Source: Linnemannia elongata
Lineage: Eukaryota > Mortierellomycota > Mortierellomycetes > Mortierellales > Mortierellaceae
Assembly (NCBI GenBank): GCA_036320915.1
Contig: JAXBDG010000015.1
Span: 372,001 to 436,000 of the forward strand
Length of the DNA stretch: 64,000 bases
Reading direction: 5' to 3'
The first letter of the stretch is position 1; every line of letters begins with the position of its first letter. The notes below the pieces were generated by a model that was not told the DNA's origin, did no database searches, and saw only the letters and a program-made list of their open reading frames with translations. Shown piece after piece: positions 24,166 to 25,911 of the stretch. A program made the translations under genes and the position numbers.

Positions 24166-25911
24166 TCACTTCTTGCGAAGCAAAGACAGACGCTTGCAAA
24201 TCTCGTCGGAATCAAGTGTTAATCGACTCGAAACCAACGCCCTCACCAAAAGACCGCGGGCTGCTTCTTTGCGGCCCTGACGGAATTCTGTTACAATCTC
24301 CTCAATCACCGACGGGTTTAGACTGGTAATGTCGTCCTTAATGGTTCTCGACTGGGGCTGGAGTAATCCTGGTGCAATGGTAGGCGTGTTAGACAACAGA
24401 GGACTCGAGAAGAGTTGCTGGCGCTGTTGAATAAAAGTGAGGACCGCCTGCCGAAGTTGCTGTTCCTGCTGGGGCAGCTGAGGAAGCTGCTGCGGATTGC
24501 TCGATTGCGCTCCAGTCGAGATCAAGAAAAGAGTCGAAAAGTTCAGCATCAGCTGTGGCAGCACCATGTTGGCCAGGAAGACCATCATATACGCTGCTGC
24601 CGGGACCGCTGAAGTGCGCGTTGTTGGAGAAGAGGCCGCTGCAGAGGAGGAGAGCGTCAAGGCTTTCTTGCGACGACAACTGTGGTTGTTGTTGCAAGAA
24701 GGCCGACAGCTGATCTCCGTCCATTTCTGCGAAGCTGCACTCTGATCCGACAACGAACGGGCTTCCCTGTTCGGACTCTGCTTGCTCGTCATCGAGGTCT
24801 TCATCGTCATCGAATAGACTCGTCGGGGTTTGTTGTTGGTGGTGGAAATCGTGGTGTGAGGGTTCCTCTGGGTTGGAGCCAGCTTCTGCTGCGGAGAGTT
24901 GGTCAAGGTGTCCGTTTCACGGGACCTCTTGTCCTTCTTTGCCAGTACTGCAGACTATTAGTTGAGGGTCATAAGCAAGGCGTATCTGTTAGTGATGCTT
25001 GAACCGGTTGGAATGTGATGGATGGATACGAGGTGGCAATGGATGGGTATGAGTGTAGCCATGGAACAAAGAAGACAGTGGATGGATATGTAGGCATTGG
25101 ACAGCGAGGACAATGGATGGATGATGTAGTGGACAACGATAGTTACCTGGCAAAAGCCGACTCCGGGTTGGTTGTTGGTGTTGTGCTTTACGGATGGGGA
25201 CGACGAAGCCAATTGTTGCTGCATCTGTGCGAACTGTGCGGTGAGGGCCTCGAGCCTTTGGTGGAGTGAGAGGTTGTCAGACTCGACGGTCTTGAGACGC
25301 TTGAGCAGTTGACAATTCTCCTCCTGAAGGGTCTCGTTCGAGGCCTCGATCTCGGCGACGTACTTGCGCTTCTTGTCTCTTGATTCCTGGGCTGCTGCGC
25401 GGTTGCGCAACACTCGCTCGCGGGCCTTTGCCTCCTTGTCGGCAGGGTCAGCTGCCGATCTCTTGCGACTGCTGCTACTGGTAGTGGTGCTGGTGGCAGT
25501 CGAAGAGGTAGAAGTCCTACGGGAGGACTTCTTGGTGGAGGAGGAAGGGACCTCGAGGTGGGAGAGGAGGGGCGACTCGAGCTTAAGGACCATTGGGCTG
25601 ATCGAGGGCGAAGCAGTCCAGGATGTTGAAGAGGAAGTAGCGAGGATGCTGGGGTCGGAGAGGAGGAGGTCGGTTGCACTGTTGTTCTGGCTGTTCGAAG
25701 AAGTGGTTGAAGGGGTAGTATCCATGAGTTGTGCAAGGATATCGATATCGAGATGCAATGAAGTAGTAGGGGTGGTTGCAGAGGGGGTTGTCGCGGATGC
25801 CAGGCTGTCCAGGTCTGCGTTGGACAGCACTTCGCTGTCAAAGGGAGCATCAGCAGAAGAGGCATGGGCCATCATGTGTGGCAATGTTGGAAGCTTAGTT
25901 GTCGAGAACAT
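24166..25911 (-). CDS. HAC1: HAC1/XBP1-type bZIP transcription factor of the unfolded protein response
   Basis: Exon 1 is 25911-25147 and exon 2 starts at 24954 after a 192-nt GT-AG intron (phase 0). The unspliced form is 517 residues, ending at 24166. Residues 161-183 form the basic region; ERVLRNRAAAQESRDKKR is close to yeast Hac1 and XBP1 (N-x-x-A-A-Q-x-S/A-R). A zipper follows with L195, L202, V209, L216 and L223. After residue 255 two long frames overlap. The annotated frame holds a hydrophobic stretch and a charged C-terminus. The other, entered if 59 nt (24950-24892) are removed, encodes acidic activation-type sequence (LFDDDEDLDDE, FDSFLDLDW) and stops at 24389, giving 423 residues. 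This is the arrangement of an Ire1-spliced UPR factor. The family call from the bZIP is strong; the Ire1 splice is a prediction. Confidence 0.87.
24511..24600 (-). other. Hydrophobic segment in the unspliced HAC1 frame
   Basis: In the unspliced frame these codons read about 30 mostly hydrophobic residues (AAAYMMVFLANMVLPQL, then LNFSTLFLIS). In the predicted spliced frame the same DNA gives acidic activation-type sequence. It recalls hydrophobic region HR2 of unspliced XBP1, which brings its mRNA to the ER membrane; that function here is inference. Confidence 0.5.
24892..24950 (-). other. Predicted Ire1-type (unconventional) intron of HAC1, 59 nt
   Basis: Bounded by CTG/CAGT (cut 24951/24950) and CCG/CAGC (cut 24892/24891), both matching the 7-nt Ire1 loop CNG/CNGN. 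Loop 1 (24953-24947) is closed by arms TTTGCCAGT and ACTGGCAAA once the spliceosomal intron is gone. Loop 2 (24894-24888) is closed by TCT/AGA, with an outer CCA/TGG. Removing 59 nt (2 modulo 3) moves the frame into the acidic activation domain. A 62-nt variant ending at the next overlapping CAG/CAGA gives the same frame. Confidence 0.72.

Follow-up and report, generated by a model that had tools for sequence, protein, structure and literature searches.

HAC1 and XBP1 transcripts provide the classic example of mRNAs spliced without the spliceosome, and their processing is treated as independent of it. The Ire1 nuclease responsible faces the cytosol, and in the XBP1 mRNA the recognized structure consists of twin 7-nt loops. 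Metazoan XBP1 has a 26-nt IRE1 intron and a hydrophobic region, HR2 (as described in PMC9217131), and its mRNA undergoes a rearrangement, or zipper, at IRE1 splicing (Peschek 2015, as cited in PMC6037481). In ascomycetes, accounts of hacA/HAC1 in Aspergillus, Verticillium and Neurospora describe an Ire1 intron of 20-23 nt and a frame-shifted product, HAC1i (PMC8071499, PMC11508391, PMC4488935); Verticillium dahliae and Aspergillus flavus have one conventional intron besides the Ire1 intron (PMC8071499, PMC11508391), and HXL1 of Cryptococcus likewise combines a 56-nt Ire1 intron with a conventional one (PMC3154848). Among the matches listed in the open-licence part of PMC, neither a spliceosomal junction inside an Ire1 hairpin nor a HAC1 of Mortierella appears in titles or in the opening lines of abstracts; subscription papers, including a 2011 survey of Hac1/Xbp1 introns, lie outside this scope.

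The window analysed here is a 64,000-nt stretch of contig JAXBDG010000015.1 from the genome of Linnemannia elongata (32 contigs, 51 Mb). Its minus strand encodes a bZIP protein whose identity as HAC1, and as a likely substrate of Ire1, is supported by the evidence below. The Pfam domains bZIP_2 and bZIP_1 score above the cut-off in P0001, a 99% identical L. elongata model (proteins used for comparison carry P numbers). The last codons of exon 1, GGA GTC GGC TTT TGC CAG (GVGFCQ), end in phase 0 and are followed by GTAACT; joining this exon to exon 2 at 24954 gives a protein of 517 aa (HAC1u, the unspliced form), as long as P0001. The central observation is that a predicted 192-nt spliceosomal intron very probably comes between the arms of Ire1's likely target hairpin, and that the 5′ Ire1 site is predicted only in mRNA that has been spliced in the nucleus (Table 1). 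As far as the accessible parts of the literature go, such a split hairpin is apparently a new variant of HAC1/XBP1 splicing.

Table 1. Features of the HAC1 locus, in window coordinates
Feature	Position	Strand	Evidence or remark
HAC1 exon 1, coding part	25147..25911	-	bZIP domain; 99% identity to P0001 over aligned part
Zipper 5′ arm, GGAGTCGGCTTTTGC, end of exon 1	25150..25164	-	
Hairpin 1 5′ arm, TTTGCCAG	25147..25154	-	ninth base T = 24954, beyond the junction
Spliceosomal intron (predicted), 192 nt, GTAACT...TAATAG	24955..25146	-	join seen in relatives
HAC1 exon 2, unspliced (HAC1u) frame	24166..24954	-	matches gene models P0001, P0003
Loop 1, CTG/CAGT (CNG/CNGN), predicted Ire1 5′ cut between 24951 and 24950	24947..24953	-	isoform P0004
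Alternative 3′ splice site AG (CTGCAG/TACTGG)	24948..24949	-	used in Lobosporangium gene model P0022
Hairpin 1 3′ arm, ACTGGCAAA	24938..24946	-	complementarity to 5′ arm
Predicted Ire1 intron, 59 nt	24892..24950	-	P0004 junction GFCQSAAEAGS agrees
Loop 2, CCG/CAGC, predicted Ire1 3′ cut between 24892 and 24891	24888..24894	-	letters, weak stem
Loop 2 stem	TCT 24897-24895 / AGA 24887-24885; CCA 24902-24900 / TGG 24881-24879	-	
Zipper 3′ arm, GCAGAAGCTGGCTCC, just past 3′ cut	24875..24889	-	coding in HAC1u (QQKLAP) and HAC1s (AAEAGS)
3′ exon after Ire1 splicing, HAC1s frame	24389..24891	-	conserved in P0004
HAC1u hydrophobic stretch, residues 374-402	24514..24600	-	overlaps HAC1s frame; best 19-mer 1.65 Kyte-Doolittle
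HAC1u tail, one coding frame only	24166..24388	-	conserved in aligned relatives

Like metazoan XBP1, the gene combines a bZIP domain, two sites with CNG/CNGN letters, a predicted frame-shifting excision that gives a new C-terminus and a predicted exon-exon helix; its unspliced form is likewise long and has a candidate hydrophobic stretch. Unlike in XBP1, the predicted spliceosomal junction lies within the hairpin, a single base ahead of loop 1; moreover, the Ire1 intron is predicted at 59 nt instead of 26 nt and the hydrophobic stretch is borderline. The conventional intron of A. flavus is described as interrupting the basic/acidic region, away from the Ire1 site (PMC11508391), whereas here it lies within the Ire1 hairpin. 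Cryptococcus HXL1 is similar in the length of its Ire1 intron and in having a conventional intron too, but that 55-nt intron precedes the bZIP region and the Ire1 intron follows it, which leaves the hairpin unsplit (PMC3154848). The locus also resembles HAC1 homologues of Mucorales (among P0060 and P0063-P0118), which read FC(D/G/N)SA and include spliced-type models (P0090, P0074), and differs from the Mucorales sequences P0116 and P0118 in that its site is predicted to be split by an intron and theirs apparently is without one. If the arrangement holds, this would be a phylum whose Ire1 substrate is assembled by the spliceosome, linking both splicing systems in sequence, and nuclear splicing would be a precondition for Ire1 splicing.

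The position of the exon-exon join is visible in relatives, which were read at the protein level, with bases deduced from codons. The motif FCQ is present in 48 of 62 proteins (a chance match in P0062 being excluded from the count), and is followed by SAVLAK in 40, SAALAK in one, the Ire1-spliced SAAEAG in one, intron read-in in three and other joins made by gene models in three. Four contigs below 2 kb carry FCQ/SAVLAK uninterrupted (P0035, 1462 nt; P0047, 1733 nt; P0048, 1746 nt; P0052, 1899 nt), and their length and lack of an intron suggest that they are probably transcripts. Intron sequence is read after FCQ in longer, genomic-looking contigs (P0002, 23,101 nt; P0038, 7697 nt; P0056, 5245 nt), of which P0038 continues into a matching exon 2 in another frame (...VCSTGKEGQGI). 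Read by codons alongside the SAVLAKK of Podila models, this stretch of P0038 determines the bases TCTGCAGTACTGGCAAAG. A donor after FCQ is also placed by the gene models P0020, P0022 and P0042; such a donor is seen in Linnemannia as well as Podila, and gene models indicate it for Mortierella alpina, Lobosporangium and Actinomortierella. For DNA of the relatives, viral_contigs and genome_contigs were each scanned once with a single protein, a search that detects close relatives only, and neither gave a match. The intron of the window contains a 21-nt repeat in 2.2 copies at 25018-25065 (ATGGATGGATACGAGTGTAGCA, plus strand). Several public Mortierellomycota HAC1 models have odd, frame-jumping introns (P0007, P0009, P0020, P0021, P0027, P0037, P0040, P0042), perhaps since annotation pipelines cannot model an Ire1 excision; P0007 and P0027 also have an unrelated-looking N-terminus.

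Joining the exons places nine consecutive Watson-Crick pairs (ten with a U-G pair) around the loop CTGCAGT, and the pre-mRNA offers three Watson-Crick pairs at this loop, or four with a wobble. Both counts agree with a sequence-only reading of the window, and the letters and coordinates that it gave for both arms, CTGCAGT and CCGCAGC were all correct on recheck. Across the unspliced window, both strands included, the best Watson-Crick stem among 630 CNGCNGN sites has five pairs and occurs at one of them. When the amino acids FCQSAVLAKK were kept and their codons drawn anew according to usage in the gene itself, for which counts were small, a stem of at least nine pairs arose in 406 of 400,000 redraws (~0.1%). 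Within the spliced coding mRNA, just two of 22 CNGCNGN sites have at least three pairs, and these are the two proposed Ire1 loops. Taken as an isolated 34-nt element, the hairpin is unexceptional against dinucleotide shuffles (z -1.5, 22 of 300 as low). An Rfam scan of 24600-25400 gave two miRNA matches at chance level; it covered the genomic letters, to which the joined hairpin is invisible.

Structures were judged by the energies of named structures and by pair probabilities. Folding of the joined mRNA bears out the expected effect of nuclear splicing on loop 1: its closing pair is predicted with a probability of 0.92 after splicing, versus 0.00, 0.01 and 0.09 in the pre-mRNA with flanks of 100, 200 and 300 nt. 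Likewise, the spliced 104-nt region has a minimum energy of -43.4 (z -3.9; one of 300 dinucleotide shuffles as low), versus -22.4 for the corresponding pre-mRNA region (z -0.1, a value reached or undercut by 132 of 300 shuffles). The full 9-bp stem proposed in the sequence-only reading is real as complementarity, but its full form makes up a minority of the predicted ensemble: the four inner pairs have probabilities of 0.92-0.97 and the five outer ones of 0.09-0.36, so that 4 bp remain beneath the loop. The outer five pairs are improbable because GGAGTCGGCTTTTGC of exon 1 prefers a 15-bp helix with GCAGAAGCTGGCTCC. This exon-exon zipper, which was absent from the earlier reading and is consistent with the rearrangement of XBP1 mRNA, competes with the outer part of the hairpin 1 stem and has an energy of -27.5 kcal/mol for the two cleaved pieces. 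It is also predicted across the intron in the pre-mRNA, at 0.99-1.00 in the 300-nt fold, the sole one that includes the exon 1 arm. The proposal that nuclear splicing creates the Ire1 substrate thus holds, in these folds, for the loop 1 hairpin but not for the whole structure, since the zipper would form without it.

Loop 2 (CCGCAGC), which we take to be identical to the 5′ loop of XBP1, fits the CNG/CNGN letters. The TCT/AGA and CCA/TGG pairing previously noted around it is present, but the resulting 3+3 bp stem is weak, at -1.1 kcal/mol alone with a closing-pair probability of 0.06, and the predicted probability of display of the loop is only 0.05-0.06.

Excision between the two predicted cuts would switch the reading frame and convert HAC1u (517 aa) into HAC1s, a protein of 423 aa with a new acidic, activation-domain-like C-terminus (SLFDDDEDLDDE...AELFDSFLDLDWS). 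A product of this type, and the strongest sign that Ire1 acts here, is P0004: encoded on a contig of 1697 nt (source label lgn), it is 419 aa long, reads GFCQSAAEAGS and goes on into the acidic C-terminus. Only one such sequence is represented, and its contig is presumably a cDNA, given its length and the lack of an intron; up to the junction it shares 88% identity with the M. alpina model P0019, which continues in the other frame. The earlier reading had allowed a removal of either 59 or 62 nt. Translation of the window gives GFCQSAAEAGS for the former and GFCQSAEAGS for the latter, and the junction of P0004 matches the 59-nt type and not the 62-nt type, which favours a cut of the shorter kind. 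The corresponding spacing is 62 nt in the M. alpina models P0018 and P0019, and Ire1 intron lengths range from 41 to 62 nt among the 41 proteins with both zipper arms. A spliceosomal origin of this second excision was considered and rejected: its ends are not GT-AG, and no AG that would give the HAC1s frame from exon 1 was seen by eye near the second cut. The genome has one locus for an Ire1 RNase domain (PF06479 at C12, next to kinase motifs) and one for a Trl1-type ligase (PF09511 at C23). The RNase domain (L004 1755-1890) is itself split by an apparent intron, which ends in AATAATAG, much like the TAATAG of the HAC1 intron.

The region around the join is conserved. In 30 aligned HAC1u-type proteins chosen for their coverage of the HAC1u frame, mean column identity is 0.96 for residues 250-262, compared with 0.93 for the bZIP and 0.58 for the N-terminal part, where some rows are short. 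Compensatory changes across Mortierellomycota had been suggested as evidence for hairpin 1; none were found within the phylum, as the stem hardly varies. Both arms of the zipper were located in 41 of the 62 proteins by a pattern fixing FCQ, SA.LAK and QQ(K/R), and the constancy of these letters is therefore partly built in; the remaining 21 are other isoforms or models, exon pieces and distant relatives. Ten of the 15 pairs can be judged from codons in most rows and five, which involve third bases, cannot. An impossible pair occurs in one cell only of the 41 rows, the terminal pair of P0016; pair 8 is not judgeable in P0026 and P0033 (GADFCQ), where pairing requires an unusual codon. Pair 4 is G-C in 38 rows, G-U in one (P0028) and A-U in two (P0021, P0041), and pair 5 is U-G in 23, C-G in 17 and U-A in one (P0025). 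Permuting the arms among rows gives an equally good result with a frequency of 0.0019 (41 rows), or 0.003 when five near-duplicates are dropped (36 rows), both values ignoring kinship. A tree of 35 rows, from which six short pieces were excluded, pairs P0021 with P0015 (G-C) and sets P0041 apart in the same 12-row clade, at an open fork; from these sequences, two independent A-U events appear likely, though not certain. The 3′ arm of the zipper is double-coded and thus also constrained by coding.

The following sequence of events would account for these features. Nuclear splicing would join CAG to T (24954), and the joined RNA would present loop 1 on a stem of 4-9 bp and loop 2 on its weak one. 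Under ER stress, Ire1 would cut CTG/CAGT and CCG/CAGC; the exon 1 arm (25164-25150) would zip to 24889-24875 and hold the exons together while the 59-nt piece leaves, and a Trl1-type ligase would then seal them, replacing HAC1u by HAC1s with its acidic C-terminus.

Why the intron lies where it does is a separate question, on which the age of the Ire1 site bears. A motif SA(V/A/R) occurs in the same register in proteins of Mucorales, Endogonales, Basidiobolus and Coemansia: the equivalent position reads FC(D/G/N)SA in Mucorales proteins, FRESAAL in Endogonales, FGESAVL in Basidiobolus and LSESAAL in Coemansia, and the Mucorales gene models P0090 and P0074 read the spliced-type FCDSAAEV. Two further Mucorales sequences, P0116 and P0118, match P0079 of Mucor lusitanicus only from RILRNRAA on, the preceding letters differing as if they were intron, and run through FCDSARIAKK unbroken. 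Because of this apparent upstream intron and the unbroken motif, they probably represent genomic DNA without an intron at the site. The register shared outside Mortierellomycota, together with the intron-free P0116 and P0118, makes the Ire1 site look older than the spliceosomal intron. In eight Mucorales proteins (P0063, P0068, P0079, P0099, P0103, P0104, P0110, P0112) Arg follows SA, which rules out the G that CNG/CNGN demands, in this register, as the sixth base of the would-be loop; the Ire1 of Mucorales may accept a less strict one.

These observations lead us to lean towards a neutral history, in which the intron landed at CAG/T inside an old Ire1 hairpin and stayed there as Ire1 meets only exported, spliced mRNA. 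Such a history is compatible with the split hairpin itself and is favoured by the apparent age of the site and by the Mucor-like P0116 and P0118, which have no intron at FCDSARIAKK; against it, the donor after FCQ has been kept, as seen in Linnemannia as well as Podila and as modelled for M. alpina, Lobosporangium and Actinomortierella. The sequence-only reading had instead seen in the intron a built-in check that only mature mRNA is cleaved. We rank this below the neutral history: with a cytosolic Ire1 nuclease, a check on mature mRNA may be redundant, and the sole point in its favour is that the intron position is kept. A fuller version, that the kept intron hides the 5′ Ire1 site in the pre-mRNA and that the choice between the neighbouring 3′ splice sites 24955 and 24948 sets the amount of HAC1 mRNA open to activation, tuning the gain of the unfolded protein response from within the nucleus, seems to us doubtful. 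A phylum with such a split hairpin would make it easy to ask if concealment of the site before splicing has any effect.

The 24948 site itself raises the possibility that the main spliceosomal product uses it, in which case the main product would be a truncated bZIP protein and the Ire1 substrate a minor isoform. Use of this site, which the sequence-only reading did not mention, would remove loop 1 and lead to a stop after 269 aa. It is a good-looking CAG, 10 nt past a branch-like ACTAAT motif (read by eye), and the Lobosporangium model P0022 joins FCQ/YWQRRTR at this second 3′ splice site; a profile of branch-site-to-AG distances across the window gave no signal. All four of P0035, P0047, P0048 and P0052, however, read FCQ/SAVLAK, and P0004 requires TCTG, which the 24955 site alone supplies; we therefore regard 24948 as improbable as the main site. 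Least probable of these is that the complementarity is a by-product of coding or chance and that Ire1 does not act here, for although the join peptide hardly varies, such that the stem could follow from codons, and the 34-mer is ordinary among shuffles, this would have to accommodate the rarity of such a stem in codon redraws, a spliced-type isoform (P0004) at exactly the predicted frame, co-changing zipper arms and the restriction of CNGCNGN sites with at least three pairs to the two proposed loops.

With nuclear splicing at 24955 as the preferred reading, the unspliced mRNA would encode HAC1u, whose C-terminal part consists of a region overlapping the HAC1s frame and a tail. Synonymous redraws of the overlapping frame leave the HAC1u frame open by chance in 46% of cases, and the open frame over the overlap is thus no evidence in itself. 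The hydrophobic stretch within it (LPQLMLNFSTLFLIST) is borderline, a hydrophobicity of 1.65 being reached in 3.7% of 4000 such redraws. The tail has a mean column identity of 0.65, with a core at 0.79, versus 0.68 in the overlap. AlphaFold2 predicts helices at 460-498 with fair confidence and a helix at 372-401 with low confidence (mean confidence for HAC1u, 51.5). A hydrophobic stretch followed by a helical, conserved tail resembles the layout of the unspliced XBP1 protein, XBP1u, which serves ER targeting, and a fungal HAC1u of this kind would bear on the origin of XBP1-like ER targeting. Hydrophobic stretches late in the protein also occur in P0106 and P0108 of Endogonales and in P0119 of Basidiobolus.
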